13,846 bases of DNA. It comes from Patescibacteria group bacterium. GTDB lineage: Bacteria; Patescibacteriota; Patescibacteriia; UBA2591; UBA6264. The notes under the pieces were generated by a model. It ran no database searches. It was given only the letters and a program-made list of their open reading frames with translations, and was not told where the DNA came from. Position 1 is the first letter of the stretch, and each line of letters starts with the position of its first letter. Below are positions 1 through 9,880 of this stretch, piece by piece. The stretch is taken from the NCBI GenBank assembly GCA_022572625.1, contig JACZVN010000003.1, positions 1 through 13,846 on the forward strand. Direction: 5' to 3'. A program made the translations under genes and the position numbers.

Positions 1-1373
1 CTTAAGAGAAGACAAGAATGTTTTTTTTGATCCTTTTGATAGCTTCGATATTGGTAAACTAGAGCCAGAGTAGTTAATCCAAGGATTAAAATAATAATCA
101 ATAGAATCTTTTTGGAACGAATTCTATCCTTAGATAAAGTCGCCGGCACGTCAATTAATCGAGAAATACTTTTTTCCTCAGCCGTACCCTGAGTTAAATT
201 AGACTCTGAGGTTGAAGCCGCAGATTCTTTAGAATCCAGTGTTTCTAAACTTTCTTGTTCTTTGCTCTCAATCTGTTTAAACTTTTTAATTTTAATCACG
301 GGATGACTTTTATCCCATTTTTTAATTAACCCGCGCAAGGCTAATCCAATTGCTTCGATATAAAAAAGTGAATTTATTGATTTTTTTTCATCAATAAAAA
401 TAGTTGGCTGGCCAATTTTTACTGGTAAACCAATTTCTTGAGCAAAATAATCAACCAATCCTTTTAATTGGGCCGTCCCGCCAACTAAAATAACCTCATT
501 AATTTTAAGCTTGGTTTTATTTTCAAAATGATCAAATGATTCTTTTATTTCTTTTAAAACTGGTTCTAAAGTCTTTTTTAAAACAGCCGCTAAATCCGGC
601 TTTTCACCGGCTAAACCATATTTAATTTTTAACTCTTCCGCTTCTTCTGGTTTTACCTTTAAGGTCTCAACAATTTTGCGGTTTAAAACATCGCCGGCTA
701 TTTTAATCGAATAAGAATAGCGCAAATCACCCCGGTCAAAAATAGCGACATTGGTCGTTACTGCCCCCATATCAATCACACAAATCGGTTCCTTAGGAGG
801 CTTAATAAATAAACCTCTTAAAATCGCTAGAGTTTCAATATCAAAAAATTCTACTTCTATTTTCAAGGCTTGAAAAAATTCCCGCCACTCTAGGGCCACG
901 GTCCGACTAGCGGCGATTAATAAATTCTCCATTCTAATTCTTTGCTGATCTAAAACCGTCACCTTTAATATTTTATCAGTAAATAATAAATCCTCTTGAT
1001 TAAGCGGGATATTTTTTTTAGCTTCCTGCCAAATTAAATTTTTTCTTTCAGTGACGGCAAAATTAGGCGTGATATTCCGGCCCTTAAAAATTATATCAAA
1101 AACATGGGTATAAATTTGACTTTCGGGTAGACTAAAAATCAACTTTTTAGCGGTAATACGGTGAGGTTGGGCCTTGGAAAACGCTTCTTTAACGGCTTTA
1201 ATTAATTTTTCTTGATTTTTAATTCTCCCCTTTTCTATAATGCCAGGCTCTAATTTTAGTCTACTTAAACTAAATACTTTAATCTTTCGTCCAGTTTTTA
1301 TCAATTCAACCACTTCAAGACTATGGTCAGCAATATCCAGCCCAATTGATTTTTTTTGAAAAAAATTAAACAT
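1..1373 (-). CDS. pilM: PilM-like actin-fold ATPase with C-terminal membrane helix (partial, runs off left edge)
   Basis: The reading frame opens at an ATG at 1373 and stays open for 457 codons to the left edge, so the C-terminus is missing. Actin/FtsA-fold signatures are visible: a phosphate-1-like segment near residue 11 (GLDIADHSLEVVEL), a phosphate-2-like segment at about 199-208 (VIDMGAVTTN) and an adenosine-type segment at about 294-303 (VILVGGTAQL), followed by EAIGLALRG near 345. PilM proteins bind ATP on the cytoplasmic face of type IV pilus machines and recruit PilN. The PilM fold should end near residue 355. Here a Lys/Glu/Ser-rich linker follows, then a hydrophobic helix at about 422-441 (KKILLIIILILGLTTLALVY). 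This suggests a membrane-anchored PilM or a fusion to a PilN-like part. The gene starts 3 bases after the kinase stop, with no clear Shine-Dalgarno. Function is confident; the gene's true end is unknown. Confidence 0.88.
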   Translation of the reverse strand, partial: MFNFFQKKSIGLDIADHSLEVVELIKTGRKIKVFSLSRLKLEPGIIEKGRIKNQEKLIKAVKEAFSKAQPHRITAKKLIFSLPESQIYTHVFDIIFKGRNITPNFAVTERKNLIWQEAKKNIPLNQEDLLFTDKILKVTVLDQQRIRMENLLIAASRTVALEWREFFQALKIEVEFFDIETLAILRGLFIKPPKEPICVIDMGAVTTNVAIFDRGDLRYSYSIKIAGDVLNRKIVETLKVKPEEAEELKIKYGLAGEKPDLAAVLKKTLEPVLKEIKESFDHFENKTKLKINEVILVGGTAQLKGLVDYFAQEIGLPVKIGQPTIFIDEKKSINSLFYIEAIGLALRGLIKKWDKSHPVIKIKKFKQIESKEQESLETLDSKESAASTSESNLTQGTAEEKSISRLIDVPATLSKDRIRSKKILLIIILILGLTTLALVYQYRSYQKDQKKHSCLLL

Positions 1374-1376
1374 ATT

Positions 1377-2645
1377 TTACTTTTTACCTTGTTTTTTAGG
1401 AATGGTGATATAAAAAACTGATCCTTGGTTCATTATTGAATCAAACCATATTTTACCGCCGATAATTTCAATAATCACCTTGGCAATATAAAGGCCCAAT
1501 CCAGCCCCTTCAGTTTCCAATTTAACGGCATTATCCGCTCGAAAAAACTTTTCAAAAATATTTTTCTGGTCCTCCTCAGGAATACCAATGCCGTTATCCT
1601 TGATCGTAATTAAATACTCTTGAGCATTTTTCTCAGTTAAAAAAATAAAAACATTACATTTTTTATCACCCGGTGAATAACGAATTGCATTAACAATTAA
1701 ATTATTAATAACTTGTTTAATTAAAATTTTATCAACTAAAACTGGTGAAAATTTTTCTTTTGGTTTTTTAAAAATAACCTGGCATTTTTTAAACTTAGCT
1801 AGACTGATGGTATCATTAATAACTGATTGAATAATATCTTCCAGTTGAACTAGTTCTGGCTTGACCGCCAATTTTCCTGATTCAATTCGAGAAATATCAA
1901 GAAAATCATCAACTAACTGAAAAATTTCTCCGGCCGAATGATTAATATTATCTAAATATTCCCGGTGTTTATCACTTAATTTATCCTTAGTTTCACTGCG
2001 CAGCATTTCCACAAATAAACGAATAGAGGTGGTCGGGGTGCGGAGCTGATGAGAGGCAATGGAAATAAAGTCTGTTTTCATCTTATCTATTTCTTTTTGT
2101 CGGCTGGATAAAAAGCCACCTAAATAAGCGACAACAAAAAATATCAAGACGCGATTTAAAATAACCGAAAAAGCAATATATAAATTATTTGGCCGAGCCA
2201 AAATTTCCGCACCAATTTTAGAAACATGAGGAATCACTCCATAGAGTTCTAGAGTAGTTAAACCTAAATAGGCAAAACTAGAAAAAATAGCAATCCCTAA
2301 TCCAGCCTGCAAAGAAAATAAAATGGCTAAAGTGGTGATAGGAATTAAATAAAGAAAACTAAAAACACTGGCAAAACCTCCGGTGTAATAAATAATCAAA
2401 GTAATCAGCCAAACTTCACTTATTGGCCAAAGCCAGAGTGACAATTTAATAAATTTATTTTCTTTAATAAACCAGCTAAATAAAAAATTTAAACCGGCAG
2501 TGGCAATAAAAAAATAAATAACAATTTGCCAGCTAAAAACAATCCCCAAGGGAATTAAAAACAGCAATATTGCCAAAGAAAATAACAATATTAACCAAGT
2601 TATTTTAACGCGCTTTTCTAAATTAGCGATTAAATTATTTTGCAT
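1377..2645 (-). CDS. Membrane sensor histidine kinase in pilus operon
   Basis: A 422-residue protein. The first 180 residues hold about six hydrophobic helices (roughly 13-33, 38-58, 66-87, 92-112, 114-134, 155-178) with short loops and no recognisable extracellular domain, so the signal is probably sensed in or near the membrane. There is no visible HAMP or PAS domain. The kinase core follows directly: H-box with phospho-accepting His199 (ASHQLRTP), N-box with Asn319 (NNLIVNAIRYS), G1 box at 350-355 (DNGIGI), F-box (FEKFF) near 364 and G2 box at 380-385 (GAGLGL). All catalytic boxes look intact. It lies between the PilX-like gene and pilM, 40 bases after the former. Its partner is not adjacent; the CheY-like protein at the head of the same cluster is the obvious candidate. 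Kinase identity is secure; a pilus role is inferred from context. Confidence 0.93.
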   Translation of the reverse strand: MQNNLIANLEKRVKITWLILLFSLAILLFLIPLGIVFSWQIVIYFFIATAGLNFLFSWFIKENKFIKLSLWLWPISEVWLITLIIYYTGGFASVFSFLYLIPITTLAILFSLQAGLGIAIFSSFAYLGLTTLELYGVIPHVSKIGAEILARPNNLYIAFSVILNRVLIFFVVAYLGGFLSSRQKEIDKMKTDFISIASHQLRTPTTSIRLFVEMLRSETKDKLSDKHREYLDNINHSAGEIFQLVDDFLDISRIESGKLAVKPELVQLEDIIQSVINDTISLAKFKKCQVIFKKPKEKFSPVLVDKILIKQVINNLIVNAIRYSPGDKKCNVFIFLTEKNAQEYLITIKDNGIGIPEEDQKNIFEKFFRADNAVKLETEGAGLGLYIAKVIIEIIGGKIWFDSIMNQGSVFYITIPKKQGKK

Positions 2646-2685: not shown

Positions 2686-3105
2686 CTATTTTTCCTCCCA
2701 ACTATCAATAATAATTGAATTATTATTTAGAGTCAAATCAACCTGAATTAGCTTATAATAATTATCACTATTACCGTTTACCACTACTCTTCTTTGATCA
2801 TTACCCAAGTCAGTTACCTCGATTACACAAAAACCATTACTGACTATTAAATCTAGTGTTCCCTCTCCTACTCCGTAATTAGTATTAAGTTGAATACGTC
2901 GCAAAGTCTCTTCCATACAACCATCAGCCACGGATAAAGACTCTGATCCGCGTTGAACTGTATAACCCATCTCTAATTCGCCTAAACCTAAAATAGAAGC
3001 GGTATAAGCCATAATTAAGGTCACGGCGCTAACAATAATAATTGTTAAAAGAGCGGCAATAGCCGAAGGTGATTTAAATTTAATCATTTTAATCCTATTA
3101 GACAT
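2686..3105 (-). CDS. PilX-like minor pilus component
   Basis: A 139-residue protein with a short basic N-terminus and one hydrophobic helix at about 14-40, followed by a segment with acidic residues (LGELEMGY) and then SLSVADGCMEETLRRI at 56-71. That last pattern resembles PilX-type minor pilins, in which a small residue, Cys and Glu precede an amphipathic helix. Cys63 and Cys93 could form a disulphide outside the cell. Unlike its neighbours it lacks a canonical prepilin cleavage box: no Gly-Phe-Thr-Leu-Ile-Glu run is present, and the helix begins SPSAIAALL without Glu at +5. It may be cut atypically or stay membrane-anchored. It starts 3 bases after the stop of the PilW-like gene, so the two are probably translationally coupled. 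The family call rests on context and the Cys/Glu pattern. Confidence 0.72.
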   Translation of the reverse strand: MSNRIKMIKFKSPSAIAALLTIIIVSAVTLIMAYTASILGLGELEMGYTVQRGSESLSVADGCMEETLRRIQLNTNYGVGEGTLDLIVSNGFCVIEVTDLGNDQRRVVVNGNSDNYYKLIQVDLTLNNNSIIIDSWEEK

Positions 3106-3108
3106 AAT

Positions 3109-3645
3109 TTATTGCCTTACGCTAACGGCCGTGCGCCAGCTTTGTGAATAAGTAAAATTTAAATCACTGGTTGAATTATTATATTCAATCGTCATTTCAA
3201 TTCTAATATTTTCTCGATTAGAACCGGCTGGGGTTAAATTAGTAAAAACTAAATTAGTTATTTTAGTTTGTCTACTAGTAAGCATAATTGGGTCACTTAA
3301 CCCTTGAATAATTTGCAAACGGCCGTCGTCTTGATCCAATTCAATAATCGTGGGATCCTTGGCTCCGTCAGCCAAGGAAAGAGATAAGATTCCAGGATCA
3401 ACCTCAAAAGAAGAGGATCCAATATTAATTCCAGTCGCCCCGCGTATTTGTTGGCTAATTAAATTTAAAGCCAAGCGAGCATTAGCCTGCACTTCTTGGG
3501 TGACGTAAGTCTTATTTTTAGAATTAGAAATAGAAATACTAAAAATGACAAAAGAAACAACTACCATACCAATAATAGTAATATAGATCAGAGTTTCAAT
3601 TAGGGTAAATCCATCTGGTTTAAACTTTAATTTTTGAGAATTCAT
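3109..3645 (-). CDS. Prepilin, PilW/GspJ-like minor pilin
   Basis: A 178-residue protein with a textbook type III signal: a 12-residue basic leader ending in Gly12, then FTLIETLIYITIIGMVVV with Glu17 at position +5 and a hydrophobic helix to about residue 39. Cleavage and N-methylation by a PilD peptidase are expected between Gly12 and Phe13. After the helix comes an amphipathic stretch (ARLALNLISQQIRGATG) like that of PilW/GspJ-type minor pilins, then a beta-rich globular domain. It lies 3 bases after the stop of the giant pilin-like gene and 3 bases before the PilX-like gene. This order (GspH-, large-, PilW- and PilX-like) matches a minor-pilin priming or tip complex. The prepilin call is firm; the subfamily is approximate. 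Confidence 0.88.
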   Translation of the reverse strand: MNSQKLKFKPDGFTLIETLIYITIIGMVVVSFVIFSISISNSKNKTYVTQEVQANARLALNLISQQIRGATGINIGSSSFEVDPGILSLSLADGAKDPTIIELDQDDGRLQIIQGLSDPIMLTSRQTKITNLVFTNLTPAGSNRENIRIEMTIEYNNSTSDLNFTYSQSWRTAVSVRQ

Positions 3646-3648
3646 AAA

Positions 3649-5697
3649 TTACCGATAATTTATTCTTGTTTCTTGTAAAATAGGGGTATCAAGATTATCA
3701 CCGATTAATTCAATCCGGTATTGTATCCATTGATTATCATTTAATTCTAATGGGATAATCGTCCCGTCCGCATTGATAAAATAAGTATCGGCTCCAGTTT
3801 CTCCGTACCAATCAGTCCAAATACCGGGTGATCCGCTAGAATCTGGAGCGGCCCTGATTTGCAATTTAATTTCACAAGTCGGAGAACAGGTCGGAATACT
3901 CTGGTCCCATTCTACCGTTTGAATAGGTGAGGTATTACCCATATCAAAGGCCGAGGAAATAAAATAGCCATTTTGTTTAAATAATCCTTCAATGATAAAA
4001 TGAAGTATAATTCCGCTATTGCCAATGGCCCAACTATCATTACTCGCTAACATTTGCACGGTTTTAAGTCTTTTATTGGTTGGTGAGGAAACACTGGTCC
4101 ATTCCACTCCGTCATATTTATAAATATCTCCGTTATTACCCACCACCTGACCGTCATCACTGGTAAATAAATATATACTTTGCCAGTTAGTGCTTCCCGT
4201 ATCAGTAAATTTTGACCAATCACTGCCGTCGTAATGCCATATTCGGCCGCTATCTCCAACTATCCAGCCGTCATTGGCGGAGACCATAAAAACATCACTC
4301 CAAACTTCATCGCCCGTATCAGTAAATTCTGACCAATCACTGCCGTCGTAATTAATAATAATTCCATCTTCTCCCACGGCCCATCCGTCACTGGCGGAAA
4401 CCATAAAAATACTGTTTAAATTTTTATTGGTCGGAGACGAAACCGATGACCAGCTGGTGCCGTCGTAGTGAAAAATTATTCCCAGTTCCCCCATTATCCA
4501 ACCGTCACTGGTGGAAACCATGCCAATGGCATAAAGTTCATCCCCACCTAAATCAACAAATTCTGACCAATCACTGCCGTCGTAGTGAAGAACTTTACCG
4601 CTATTGCCAATGACCCAAAGATCATTAGCTGAAATACTATCAAAGTCATTCAAATTTTTAGTAGTAACAGAATTATAAATAATGGTAATATCGGCTAAAT
4701 TGGGAGTGTCAAAATCAGCTTGATCACGGGTTAAAATAGCCCGATACTGTAAATATTGGCCGTCAGGCGAAGAAATATCAGAAGATTGAGATTTAGTTAA
4801 TTCACTGCTAAATGACGACCAGGTCTCATCAGGAGTAGGAGTATTGCCAGTCCTGGTGGCAATGGTTAAATCAGTTCTAGAAAGAAGCAATTCAGTCCAA
4901 TAAGTGGTATCCCAATGAGTACTGGAGTCGCTACTGTCAAAAACTCTTGATAAAAAAGTACCGGAAACTACTCCATCACTAAGGGCAATACTGGCCCCTT
5001 CGCCCGATCCGGCTACAACCGTGTCATTAAATATCCCACTATTAAAATCAGTCGCCGTGGTATCAATAAATTGATCTCCGCCAGCCGCCACCCAGGTGCC
5101 ATCAGCCGCGCTGTCTAATTTAATTTCTCCGGCCGTATTATAATCCACATTCTCATTATCAGAATCATATCTTGTTTGATCAGACCAAATACTTTGACCA
5201 GGACCGCCTGACCAGTCAGTCTGGACCCAATTAACAGAATCCCAATTACTTAAATAAGCCACTCTTTGAACTGAGTTAATCACCCCCTGCCTTACGTCCC
5301 AGGTAAGAATGACCGTCATTCTTTTAGTATTAACGTCAGTATAAGAACCAGGACAGCCGACGATTTCATCTAAAGCATCGCGACAGACATCTTCAATTGT
5401 AATTAAGCGGGTATATTTTCCATCAATTAACTCTGACTCTCCGCTACTTAAAACCCATTGACCGCCGCTAATTGAAATCACAGCCGGACTATAAATAAAT
5501 TCATTCCAGGAAGTGTCATGAATTGATCGTAAAGCTTCAATTCCCTCCTGAGCCAAAGCCTCAGCTTGCGTCTGCTCTCCTCCCTGCCTCATTGCGTTAA
5601 ATCCGCCGACGACTAAAGAAGCCATGGCCGCACCAATAAGAGCAAAAATAGCCATAGCAATTATGACTTCTAAGATAGATTGGGCTTTTTGATGCAT
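3649..5697 (-). CDS. Giant prepilin-like protein with beta-propeller-type repeats, candidate pilus-tip adhesin
   Basis: A 682-residue protein. The N-terminus (KAQSILEVIIAMAIFALIGA) is a prepilin-type signal with probable cleavage after Ala5 and Glu10 at +5, followed by a pilin helix to about residue 36 and an amphipathic segment with QAEALAQEGIEALRSI. Residues 60-150 look like a small pilin head with Cys105 and Cys114. Next come an aromatic linker (VQTDWSGGPGQ), a beta-rich module (247-341), about six repeats of 39 residues (349-567; core DGWxxGxxGxIxHYDGxxWS), and a second copy of the beta-rich module (578-681) with Cys604 and Cys608. The repeats resemble YCF48/BNR-type propeller blades. Ordinary pilins have 130-200 residues, so some 500 residues would be displayed outside the cell. 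It sits among minor pilins, which suggests a tip adhesin. Adhesion is inference; the prepilin and repeat structure are seen directly. Confidence 0.85.
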   Translation of the reverse strand: MHQKAQSILEVIIAMAIFALIGAAMASLVVGGFNAMRQGGEQTQAEALAQEGIEALRSIHDTSWNEFIYSPAVISISGGQWVLSSGESELIDGKYTRLITIEDVCRDALDEIVGCPGSYTDVNTKRMTVILTWDVRQGVINSVQRVAYLSNWDSVNWVQTDWSGGPGQSIWSDQTRYDSDNENVDYNTAGEIKLDSAADGTWVAAGGDQFIDTTATDFNSGIFNDTVVAGSGEGASIALSDGVVSGTFLSRVFDSSDSSTHWDTTYWTELLLSRTDLTIATRTGNTPTPDETWSSFSSELTKSQSSDISSPDGQYLQYRAILTRDQADFDTPNLADITIIYNSVTTKNLNDFDSISANDLWVIGNSGKVLHYDGSDWSEFVDLGGDELYAIGMVSTSDGWIMGELGIIFHYDGTSWSSVSSPTNKNLNSIFMVSASDGWAVGEDGIIINYDGSDWSEFTDTGDEVWSDVFMVSANDGWIVGDSGRIWHYDGSDWSKFTDTGSTNWQSIYLFTSDDGQVVGNNGDIYKYDGVEWTSVSSPTNKRLKTVQMLASNDSWAIGNSGIILHFIIEGLFKQNGYFISSAFDMGNTSPIQTVEWDQSIPTCSPTCEIKLQIRAAPDSSGSPGIWTDWYGETGADTYFINADGTIIPLELNDNQWIQYRIELIGDNLDTPILQETRINYR
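3655..3966 (-). repeat. Second copy of the duplicated beta-rich module (C-terminal)
   Basis: Residues 578-681 form the C-terminal end of the giant pilin-like protein and match residues 247-341. This copy has an inserted CSPTC motif (Cys604, Cys608) that could form a small disulphide loop; the first copy has no cysteine. The module ends at the stop codon, so the array is capped on both sides by the same type of domain. Confidence 0.65.
3997..4653 (-). repeat. Tandem array of about six 117-bp coding repeats
   Basis: Within the giant pilin-like gene, residues 349-567 form about six 39-residue units. At DNA level the 21-base string TGACCAATCACTGCCGTCGT plus A occurs exactly at 4213, 4330 and 4564, and a diverged copy lies at 4447. 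The starts are therefore spaced by 117 bases or a multiple. The segments around 4197-4235 and 4314-4352 differ at only one position in about 39. The last unit (about 544-567) lacks the tail after the HF/HY strand. Such near-identity points to recent duplication or gene conversion between blades. Confidence 0.9.
4675..4959 (-). repeat. First copy of a duplicated beta-rich module in the giant pilin-like protein
   Basis: Residues 247-341 share a skeleton with residues 578-681 of the same protein (bases 3655-3966). TFLSRVFD matches YFISSAFD at the start, a W and an arginine-containing strand sit in the middle, and GQYLQYRAIL...DTPNLADITIIY matches NQWIQYRIEL...DTPILQETRINY at the end. The two copies bracket the propeller-like array. 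They are diverged at DNA level, so this duplication is older than the blade duplication. The fold is not recognised with certainty; a jelly-roll or discoidin-like sandwich is possible. Confidence 0.65.
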
Positions 5698-5774: not shown

Positions 5775-6242
5775 TTATTCAGACGGCTGCTCTTGGATTA
5801 ATCCTAGAGCATTAATACTAATTACTTTATTTCCACTAGTATCATGGCTTAAAATTATTTCTCCAGTGTTATCAGGCACTCCTAATCCCTGAGAAAAATT
5901 AACTTCTTGACCGGTTAAAGAGGTGGTAATAGTTAAAACTTGATCAAGGGTTATTACCAGATCATAACTGCTGTCTCGACTCGCATAAGATGAACCTTGA
6001 TATAAAATATACTGATCATTAGTTTCAGGATTTATTTCAAAATAAACACCATGGGCTGAATTATTTAACCCGGCGACACTACGCACTTTAATAATGCGCA
6101 AATTTTGAACAAGCTGACTTGCATTTTCATTAAGTTGACTTTTAACTTGTAAATTTCCATAGATTGGTGCTCCAATTGCAACCAAAATTAACATGATCGC
6201 CATAACGATGATTAATTCAATTAAAGTAAATGATTTAATCAT
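5775..6242 (-). CDS. Prepilin, GspH/FimT-like
   Basis: A 155-residue protein beginning MIKSFTLIELIIVMAIMLIL. The FTLIE box with Glu9 at +5 and the hydrophobic helix at 5-27 mark a type IV prepilin. The residue before the expected cut is Ser4, not Gly, and the leader is only four residues. No better upstream start exists, because the pilC stop lies 2 bases ahead. After the helix, QLVQNLRIIKVRSVAGLNNSAHGVYF at about 43-68 follows the GspH/FimT plan of an amphipathic helix with Arg, then small residues, then a GVYF-like strand. The rest is a beta-rich head. It is the first pilin gene after pilB and pilC, and the only small prepilin here that could be a major or pseudopilin subunit, although GspH-like proteins are usually minor. 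Prepilin nature is firm; rank is uncertain. Confidence 0.88.
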   Translation of the reverse strand: MIKSFTLIELIIVMAIMLILVAIGAPIYGNLQVKSQLNENASQLVQNLRIIKVRSVAGLNNSAHGVYFEINPETNDQYILYQGSSYASRDSSYDLVITLDQVLTITTSLTGQEVNFSQGLGVPDNTGEIILSHDTSGNKVISINALGLIQEQPSE

Positions 6243-6244
6243 TT

Positions 6245-7342
6245 TTATCTGCTAATATTTCCAGTAATATCATAGATTGGGGTGATAATCGATAAAGCTA
6301 AAAAGCCAACCACTAAACCAATAAAAATAAGTAGAATTGGTTCAATCGCCGTTGATAAAGCTTTAGTTGAATTATCTACTTCTGTTTCATAAAAATCAGC
6401 TAAATAAAACAAAACCTCTTCTAACTTACCTGACTCTTCACCCACCTTAACCATTTTTATAAGTAAAGTCGGAAATAAATTTTCAAATTGATTCAAATTC
6501 TCTGAAAGTTTAGTTCCTTGAACAATTCGGCGACTAACTGAACCTAGTGCTTTTTGGTAATAATAATTTCCGACCGTATGCTTGGTAATCTTTAATGCTT
6601 CGTCAATATTTAATCCACTTTTTATCAGTGTGGCAAGGGTTCTTGAAAAACGAGCCAAATTAGCATATTTGACCAACCTTTTAATAACCGGTATTTTTAA
6701 GAAAAACCAATGGGTGATGGGCTTGGCAAATTTTTGTTTTACAGTCCAACTTGTTAAAATAATCAGTCCAATTATGGATAAAAATAAAAGCAAACTATTG
6801 GCTTGAATAAAATGAGAAAAAGCAATCATCATTCTGGTAGTAACGGGTAAATCTGCTTTTAACCCCTCAAATAAAGGAATGATTTTAGGTAAAATTACAA
6901 AAGAAAGCACCATAAATAAAACAAAGGCCGCCGATAAAACAACAATTGGGTACAGCATGGCCCCTTTTATTTTAGCTACTAATTCTCTTTCCTTTTCCAA
7001 TTGCGTGGCAATATTGTCTAAATTCTCTTCCATGGTGCCGGAACTTTCTCCGGCGTAGACCGCGTTAATAAATAATCCAGAAAAAACATTTTCATGCTGA
7101 CGTAATGAGGAAGATAATGAACGTCCAGCTCTGATAGATTTTAATATTTGCTTTAATATTTTCTTTAATTTACCCGTGGCTGAACTTTCAACAATACTCA
7201 AAGCCTCGGTAATCGTAATCCCTGCTTTTAACATCACTGACAAATGCCTGGCCAAAAGCGTCCTTTGAGTTAAATTTACACCGCCAATATTAATTTCTAT
7301 GTCTAATATCCCCCTTTTTTTTGTTTGATTTTTCTGAGCCAT
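6245..7342 (-). CDS. pilC: Type IV pilus inner-membrane platform protein PilC
   Basis: A 365-residue protein with the duplicated T2SSF/GspF architecture. Domain 1 covers about 28-152 and domain 2 about 230-352. Each carries a helical bundle with a conserved glycine/glutamate motif (YAGESSG at 96-102 and VGEESG at 300-305). Hydrophobic helices lie at about 132-152, 183-200 and 333-354. LARHLSVMLKAGITITEAL near 30-48 and FSRTLATLIKSGLNIDEAL near 232-250 are the matching starts of the two halves. PilC is the membrane platform on which the hexameric ATPase PilB acts to push pilins into the fibre. At 365 residues it is somewhat shorter than proteobacterial PilC (about 400), mainly at the N-terminus. 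It follows pilB after 26 bases and is followed 2 bases later by the GspH-like prepilin, so one transcript is likely. Confidence 0.95.
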   Translation of the reverse strand: MAQKNQTKKRGILDIEINIGGVNLTQRTLLARHLSVMLKAGITITEALSIVESSATGKLKKILKQILKSIRAGRSLSSSLRQHENVFSGLFINAVYAGESSGTMEENLDNIATQLEKERELVAKIKGAMLYPIVVLSAAFVLFMVLSFVILPKIIPLFEGLKADLPVTTRMMIAFSHFIQANSLLLFLSIIGLIILTSWTVKQKFAKPITHWFFLKIPVIKRLVKYANLARFSRTLATLIKSGLNIDEALKITKHTVGNYYYQKALGSVSRRIVQGTKLSENLNQFENLFPTLLIKMVKVGEESGKLEEVLFYLADFYETEVDNSTKALSTAIEPILLIFIGLVVGFLALSIITPIYDITGNISR

Positions 7343-7368: not shown

Positions 7369-9060
7369 TTAATCTCTGGTTACCCGCAATATTTCTTGTA
7401 AAGTAGTAACCCCCTCAAAAATTTTTTCAATCCCATTTTCAAGCATAGTCGTCATACCACTCTCAATCGCCACTTTCATAATTTCATCACTTGAAGCGTT
7501 TCTTAATACCATCTCCTTAATTTTTTCATTCATTTCTAAAATCTCATAAATGCCAATTCTTCCGGCATAACCAGTCTGAGAACATACTTTACATCCTTTG
7601 CCCTTATAAAGGGTAATTTTAGCTAAATCTAGATATCCTTTCTTTTTTAAAATCCTTATTAAAGATTTTTCTTTTTCAATCATCTCTTTTTCTTCCTTGG
7701 TTAACTTATAAGAATACCGACATTTTTCACAAATTACTCTCACTAATCTTTGAGCAATAGCAATATTCACGGTTGAAGCAATTAAAAATGGTTCTACTTC
7801 CATGTCTAATAATCGTGGCAGGGTGGTAGCCGCATCATTTGTATGCAAGGTTGATAAGACTAAATGACCGGTTAAAGCAGAATTAACGGCAATACTAGCG
7901 GTTTCTTTATCCCTAATTTCTCCGACCATAATAATATCCGGGTCCTGGCGGACAATGGCCCGCAAACCATTGGCAAAAGTAAGATTAGTTTTAGTGTTAA
8001 CTTGAATTTGACTTATTCCCTCAATGTCATATTCAACTGGATCTTCAATGGTAGAAATATGAACATCCCTGACATTTAAAATTTGTAAAATTGCGTAAAG
8101 GGTGGTAGTTTTACCGCTGCCGGTTGGGCCGGTGACTAAAATCATGCCATGCGGATGTTTAATCGCCCGATTAACCTTTTCTAAATCTCCGGCAAAAAAA
8201 CCTAAATCTTTTAAAGTAAACTGCCGATTTTGAGCGGCTAAAATACGCATCACCACATTTTCACCCTCAGTAACCGGAACCACTGATACCCTAATGTCGA
8301 TAAATCCTTCTTTAGTATTAAAACGAAACTTACCATCTTGAGCCGCCCGATGCTCATCAGTACGCATTTTAGATAAAATTTTAATCCGGGTGACAATAAG
8401 ATCCAGTAATTCTTTAGATAGCTCTAAAACGTCATGCATGATCCCGTCAATTCTAAAACGAACAACTATTTTATTAAGGTACGGCTCAATGTGAATATCA
8501 GAAGCTTTATTTAAATAGCCGTACATAATCAACATATCAACTATTTTAACCGTGGCCTCATCTCTTTGTTCTCGGCCAATGGCCTTATCTTTTAACCGTT
8601 TTAAAACTTTATTAAATTCGTCTTTTAAAGAAGGTTTATATCCAAAGAGCGAGTTTTCTAAATCATTTTTGGTAATAAAATATGGTATCACCTGTTCGCC
8701 GGTCCGTTTTTCAATAAAATGTCTAATCTCTAAATCATTAGGATCAGTCATAGCCACTTTTATTCCCTGTTCAGACCGGGCAAAAGCGACTATTCCCTTA
8801 GAATGGGCGACTAATTCAGGAATCAAATGTAAAACTTGGTCATCTATTTTCTCTTTGCTAAGATTAATAAAGGGAAAACCGATACTATCAGCAATTAATC
8901 CTCCCAATTGTTCATCATTAATTAAATGTTTATCAACTAAAACTTCAATTAAATCCTTTTTTTTCTTTTTAGCGGTTTGGACGGCAGTTTCAAAATCCGC
9001 CTCAGAAATATGATTAGGCTTAATTAATAATTCTTTTAATTTTTCAATCTTAATTTTCAT
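7369..9060 (-). CDS. pilB: Type IV pilus assembly ATPase PilB (GspE family)
   Basis: A 563-residue secretion ATPase. An N-terminal MshEN/T2SSE_N-type domain covers about 1-150, including GLIADSIGFPFINL near 54-67. The ATPase core holds SDIHIEP at 187-193, Walker A GPTGSGKT at 311-318 (Lys317), the Asp box STIEDPVEY at 336-344, Walker B DPDIIMVGEIRD at 373-384 (Glu381) and the His box GHLVLSTLHTNDA at 398-410 (His406). A zinc-binding tetracysteine is present at Cys444, Cys447, Cys490 and Cys493. The N-domain and the cysteine module mark a PilB/GspE extension motor, not the retraction motor PilT. All catalytic residues look intact. It hydrolyses ATP in the cytoplasm and works through PilC. It lies 85 bases after the unknown membrane gene, the widest gap in the cluster. 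No Shine-Dalgarno is visible before its ATG. Confidence 0.96.
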   Translation of the reverse strand: MKIKIEKLKELLIKPNHISEADFETAVQTAKKKKKDLIEVLVDKHLINDEQLGGLIADSIGFPFINLSKEKIDDQVLHLIPELVAHSKGIVAFARSEQGIKVAMTDPNDLEIRHFIEKRTGEQVIPYFITKNDLENSLFGYKPSLKDEFNKVLKRLKDKAIGREQRDEATVKIVDMLIMYGYLNKASDIHIEPYLNKIVVRFRIDGIMHDVLELSKELLDLIVTRIKILSKMRTDEHRAAQDGKFRFNTKEGFIDIRVSVVPVTEGENVVMRILAAQNRQFTLKDLGFFAGDLEKVNRAIKHPHGMILVTGPTGSGKTTTLYAILQILNVRDVHISTIEDPVEYDIEGISQIQVNTKTNLTFANGLRAIVRQDPDIIMVGEIRDKETASIAVNSALTGHLVLSTLHTNDAATTLPRLLDMEVEPFLIASTVNIAIAQRLVRVICEKCRYSYKLTKEEKEMIEKEKSLIRILKKKGYLDLAKITLYKGKGCKVCSQTGYAGRIGIYEILEMNEKIKEMVLRNASSDEIMKVAIESGMTTMLENGIEKIFEGVTTLQEILRVTRD

Positions 9061-9508: not shown

Positions 9509-9880
9509 CTAAAATACTTTTTCTATTTGTTTAATTACCTCTTTCATTGAAAAGTTAGATTTAACAATGTAATCAACTGCTCCCAACTCTTTAGCTTTTT
9601 CAATATCTGAATCTTGACTTAAATTAGAAAGGATAATCACTGGCATTTTTAATGTCTGATCAGCTTTAATTTCTTCTAATACCTCAAATCCATTTTTTTT
9701 AGGCATAATTAAATCTAATAAGACTAGGTCAGGTTTTTCTGATTTTATCTTATCGATTGCCTCTTGGCCGTTAACGGCTGACACCACTTCGTAACCAGCC
9801 CTAGTTAGCCCATCCTGATAAGCGCGAGCAATAAATTTATCATCTTCGGCTAATAGGATCTTTTTCTTATTCTTTGGCAT
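9509..9880 (-). CDS. Single-domain response regulator (CheY-like receiver)
   Basis: A 123-residue protein that is only a receiver domain. The acidic pocket is at Asp13 and Asp14 (LLAEDDKF), the phospho-accepting residue is Asp56 (LVLLDLIMP), the switch residue is Ser85 (VIILSN) and the conserved Lys is Lys107 (YIVKSNF). There is no DNA-binding or enzymatic output domain, so it should act by protein contact, as CheY, PilG or PilH do. It is the first gene of the pilus cluster, directly behind a likely promoter, and may modulate PilB or another pilus motor component. The only histidine kinase in the window lies about 7 kb further along the same cluster and is the natural candidate partner. The family is certain; the partner and target are inferred. 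Confidence 0.94.
   Translation of the reverse strand: MPKNKKKILLAEDDKFIARAYQDGLTRAGYEVVSAVNGQEAIDKIKSEKPDLVLLDLIMPKKNGFEVLEEIKADQTLKMPVIILSNLSQDSDIEKAKELGAVDYIVKSNFSMKEVIKQIEKVF

Follow-up and report, generated by a model that had tools for sequence, protein, structure and literature searches.

A modular minor pilin with a six-bladed propeller, encoded in a conserved gene slot of Patescibacteria, is a candidate pilus-tip adhesin

Modular pilins are already known: a survey put their number at more than 1,200, spread over 264 architectures, and included Patescibacteria in its drawn examples (PMC8179133). A propeller-bearing pilin needed for normal host binding is known as well. In TM7x (Nanosynbacter lyticus, Saccharibacteria), the minor pilin PilX2 has a C-terminal seven-bladed propeller and is proposed to be the pilus adhesin; in the deletion mutant, host binding is down to 4.6% of host cells, compared with about 10.6% otherwise (PMC12206443). 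How uncultured Patescibacteria recognize their hosts is largely an open question. Here, we describe a 682-residue minor pilin encoded at 3649..5697 on the minus strand of a 13,846-nucleotide stretch of DNA (the window; contig JACZVN010000003.1 of assembly GCA_022572625.1), which comes from a Patescibacteria group bacterium, a very small and probably uncultured cell. With moderate confidence, we assign the gene product to a Patescibacteria type IV pilus as its I-type (GspI/PilV-like) minor pilin, positioned at the pilus tip, where its propeller would bind a ligand on a target surface. The protein is most likely a tip-displayed adhesin.

The original prediction, made from the DNA letters alone, had proposed a prepilin N-terminus with Glu at +5 fused to beta-rich modules, among them about six blade-like repeats of 39 residues. 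The open reading frame (ORF) and its AlphaFold2 model bear this out. The model begins with a pilin module (residues 1-155; 5233..5697) that comprises a prepilin signal, a helix at about residues 8-62 and a pilin beta-sheet at 72-150. A conserved neck follows (156-199; 5101..5232), with the motif WxQTDWSGGxGQSIWSD and low model confidence over 153-189, and then a first beta-sandwich (200-343; 4669..5100), a six-bladed, Ycf48-like propeller (349-568; 3994..4653) and a C-terminal beta-sandwich (576-682; 3652..3972) that ends in INYR/K and is kept in most relatives. The 39-residue periodicity is far above chance expectation. With the whole model as query, Foldseek ranks 1-12 were all Ycf48 chains or a Ycf48-containing complex (5ojr, E 1.6e-11); the PF14870 profile (Ycf48 / PSII_BNR) has no match in the protein at E<=1. 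At the same threshold, neither RCC1 nor PF05567 (PilY1) matches it, and RCC1 is likewise without a match in the source genome, in a search that found it in 17 of 286 genomes and 0 of 14 controls. The full-length protein gave no match in a phage collection and nothing convincing by sequence in the PDB. As in the definition of modular pilins in PMC8179133, an N-terminal pilin module is joined to a C-terminal module that is not specific to pili. The protein is a real, well-formed modular pilin, and probably a functional one. Its gene has a G+C content of 0.39-0.43 by domain, pilin module included, higher than the 0.31-0.37 of nine other window genes; at third positions, the values are 0.31-0.38 versus 0.22-0.29.

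The fusion is not a lone oddity, and the gene occupies a conserved slot. A protein search found 397 homologs among 7,994 scored candidates. Among the 120 homologs listed, 100 have the pilin module and 87 have both it and the C-terminal sandwich; pilin and propeller occur together in 62, pilin and C-terminal sandwich with no propeller match in 37, and a propeller-type match without the pilin in 20. When 20 members chosen for differing architecture were aligned, 37 columns were invariant, 28 of them at residues 6-194 and 9 at 581-660, with none between. In many relatives of about 1000 residues, a further propeller interrupts the chain near residue 243; members with a single propeller include the window protein and P0008. 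A contig scan with two peptide patterns, which favor proteins with a neck or prepilin motif, retained the best 80 of the 120 relatives, and 62 of the resulting 79 loci contain the pilin module, as 63 ORFs (the other 17 have no ORF matching it). For 61 of the 63 family ORFs, the nearest recognized upstream gene is an H-like pilin or pilC, and for 46 the nearest recognized downstream gene is a J-like pilin, where "nearest recognized" permits gaps (above 300 bases in four cases upstream and, downstream, in L031, L032 and L049). The remaining 17 downstream cases comprise 8 cut by the contig end, 6 with another family ORF, 1 with pilM and 2 with no recognized gene, one of which, L044, lies near its contig end. 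At two loci (L046:8965-11747 and L061:8577-11235), the family gene is broken into two ORFs within the variable head, which suggests a frameshift or an error in assembly more than a true gene pair.

What kind of pilin occupies this slot? As had been noted, the window gene lies among minor-pilin genes. Upstream is an H-like (FimT/GspH type) minor pilin (5775..6242); downstream are a J-like (PilW/ComGF type) minor pilin (3109..3645) and a K-like (PilX/GspK type) one without Glu at +5 and with no family match of its own (2686..3105). All three are on the minus strand, as are the other window genes named below. A gene between H-like and J-like genes, with a K-like gene after, is in the position of an I subunit. 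The module has the features of a type IV pilin, namely a class III signal peptide, a Glu at +5 that is invariant across 55 aligned rows, and a long hydrophobic N-terminal helix (residues 8-60) in the model; its N_methyl score is 21.5 bits against 21.2, and that of the full protein is 18.7 bits. Its likeness is to the I subunit (GspI/PilV type) of an H-I-J-K tip complex: family scans (below threshold), fold matches and gene order all point this way, each weakly. The family-profile controls comprised the window and, of proteins with fitting length, 30 of 53 H-like, 30 of 37 J-like and 32 of 37 K-like ones. Foldseek with the pilin module alone gave no significant match, and a PDB search with the pilin profile gave nothing convincing, the top two hits being 31-residue LigA stretches and the next geopilin.

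The nearest family profiles include GspI, XpsI, ComGE and ComGF, and the weak fold matches of the module include a competence pilin. Both would also suit a secretion pseudopilus or a competence (DNA-uptake) pilus, whose head would bind a secreted substrate or DNA. We regard this as improbable: PilM (3..1373, continuing past the window end), the assembly ATPase PilB (7369..9060; T2SSE, 424.8 bits) and the PilS-like membrane domain of a histidine kinase (1377..2645; sub-threshold, 20.6 of 27 bits) are pilus-type matches, and lectin-like and propeller heads would seem better suited to surface ligands. The platform protein PilC is encoded at 6245..7342 (T2SSF, 203.1 bits).

Several observations weigh against an I-type tip pilin. 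In the window protein and its kin L031 and L032, residue -1 of the cleavage site is Ala5, whereas Gly holds this position in at least 90% of the 55 rows. The GspI profile gives 17.2 bits on the module, below its curated cut-off of 44.35, and the PilV profile has no match at E<=0.01; we therefore call the module I-type-like and file it under neither GspI nor PilV. The J-like and K-like labels rest on weak matches, and L047 has no recognized downstream gene despite 9 kb of contig left; the latter case and the soft J assignment lower our confidence. Finally, no PilD gene was found in the source genome, which is 76% complete. Ala5 and the missing PilD would fit a membrane-anchored surface protein outside any pilus, with its signal left uncut. 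This is very unlikely, given that Glu+5 is invariant, that the gene follows pilC or an H-like pilin in nearly all family ORFs, and that a PilD gene was found in 54 of the 57 other genomes searched. Gly before the prepilin cleavage site is usual rather than absolute, and Ala at -1 can be tolerated, so we still call the window protein a pilin, one that would be processed by PilD and assembled into the filament. Ala or Ser precedes the prepilin cut in three of the four window minor pilins (2686-3105, 5775-6242 and 5233-5697), and Gly is nearly invariant there in alignments of relatives' pilins.

Across the family, the pilin module, the neck and usually the C-terminal sandwich are kept, and the middle is a Ycf48 propeller, an LVIVD propeller, LamG or something else. 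The sandwich is not universal, since the LVIVD group mostly has no recognizable one. We labeled the heads of the window and 59 loci (the 62 less L074, L100 and L102) as 13 Ycf48-like, 11 LVIVD, 4 LamG, 21 other (a class that pools unlike heads) and 4 none, with 7 unlabeled as cut by a contig end. Pfam, run on 36 of the 63 family ORFs, found LVIVD repeats in 7, LamG in 5, a Ycf48-type BNR (PF14870) in 2 and a CBM in 1, in a set mostly without Ycf48 heads, as nine Ycf48-headed ORFs, cut ORFs and some short or near-duplicate ones were left out. This variety bears on whether the head might be structural or regulatory, serving PilY1-like priming or contact sensing and binding nothing specific. An I-type position does imply a priming role (PMC9934059), and a histidine kinase and a response regulator are encoded in or beside the window operon. 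However, the slot holds unrelated folds (two propeller families, LamG and others) as well as four pilins with little or no head, and priming would not need such variety, which makes this explanation unlikely. Related bacteria carry other, unrelated heads in the same gene position, so such cells probably use the gene product to hold on to a surface or host.

The heads mostly follow descent, with a few exchanges, one of them between close Uhrbacteria. In that pair (L043 and L048), identity is 81% for PilC, 80% for PilB, 70% for the pilin module and 54% for the C-terminal sandwich. Their heads differ, LamG at one locus and a double Ycf48-like propeller at the other, and BLASTP aligns the two ends only. 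A PilC-only tree of 47 rows requires 16 head changes, where the minimum possible is 4. On a PilB+PilC tree, which omits the long branches L088, L092 and L093, 44 rows in five head classes require 12 changes. Restricted to the three well-defined classes, with 26 rows, the count is 5 (minimum 2), fewer than in every one of 200 shuffles (mean 11.2). Heads are thus mostly inherited, and we reject a strong form of fast head exchange. The window groups with L032, inside a set of 13 rows with 10 Ycf48-like, 1 LamG and 2 unclassed heads. Single-linkage clustering of the heads was dropped, as 50 of 56 fell in one group.

At three loci, a headless or near-headless pilin precedes a separate protein ending in the family's C-terminal sandwich (L064, 8908-9573 and 10118-14857; L066, 7104-7745 and 7745-8839; L088, 8986-9663 and 9673-10530). 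By eye, the separate proteins have a signal-like N-terminus of their own, so that head and pilin are encoded apart; if the head is secreted beside the pilin, these loci would show the parts cooperating unfused. RCC1 repeats occur on other pilin-like proteins of the same phylum, which by eye are PilX-like without Glu+5 in L113, start with the prepilin sequence GFTIVELL in L125 and start with GSTLMEI in L116. These suggest that propellers have been grafted onto pilins more than once.

The original prediction had envisaged a non-retractable tip subunit. The likeness to an I subunit supports the tip, but "non-retractable" is unsupported, because a PilT family ATPase is encoded on another contig of the source genome (C59; 343.4 bits, cut-off 319.1). 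A second pilus cluster, on contig C27, has consecutive PilB-like, PilT-like and PilC-like genes, this PilT-like gene scoring 254.1 bits, below the cut-off. The window pilus may therefore be able to retract. It may also be under two-component control, since the histidine kinase gene (1377-2645) and that of a single-domain response regulator upstream of PilB (9509..9880) flank the pilin genes, and similar genes lie near many related loci.

In the mechanism that we propose for an I-type tip pilin, prepilin peptidase would cut after Ala5 and the N-terminal helix would pack into the filament core. The module would join the H-, J- and K-like pilins of the adjoining genes and prime assembly, and would thereby reach the pilus tip. 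The neck would then display the beta-sandwich, the propeller and the second beta-sandwich, and the propeller would bind its ligand on the target surface, quite possibly a host cell. Binding to a host or other surface, as first predicted, is suggested by the architecture and by the PilX2 deletion phenotype (PMC12206443). A broader notion, which we offer tentatively and with some doubt, is that the I-type tip-complex subunit serves many Patescibacteria as a standard adaptor: pilin and neck stay constant, the C-terminal sandwich mostly so, and between them sits a head that can be exchanged. If so, this head would decide what or whom the cell attaches to. One easily found gene slot with a head that differs by lineage provides concrete candidates for host-binding domains, which can be expressed and screened without culturing.

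Our search of the open-licence literature showed neither this slot with a Ycf48-type head nor an I-type-like pilin carrier in a conserved slot whose kept ends frame an exchangeable head, which does not prove that no such account has been published. With Ycf48 / PSII_BNR, the window protein shares fold and repeat type alone, and many of its homologs carry PF14870. The Ycf48 propeller has seven blades, and that of the window protein six. TM7x PilX2 is likewise a Patescibacteria minor pilin carrying a beta-propeller, and TM7x, with its two pili, parallels the source genome and its second pilus cluster. In PMC12206443, where the pilin letters are partly arbitrary, PilX2 is described with an RCC1 propeller of seven blades and without a predicted PilD signal; the window protein differs in its six Ycf48-like blades, Glu+5, I-type-like module and two additional sandwiches, and in lacking an RCC1 match. 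PilB and PilC of Streptococcus sanguinis resemble the window protein in that a small pilin module carries a grafted binding module and is thought to be in a tip complex (PMC8179133, PMC9934059). There, the vWA or ConA-like modules are on PilB and PilC and the I-like subunit PilA is ungrafted, whereas in the window the I-type-like pilin itself bears the head, followed by a kept C-terminal domain. The tip adhesin PilY1/PilC also has a propeller presented by a minor-pilin tip complex, but PilY1 is a separate protein and not a pilin. PilY1 matched in none of 58 genomes, the source genome included, and in none of 14 controls, so its absence is not established. Our data suggest a simple alternative to PilY1, in which the nucleating pilin itself carries the tip effector.
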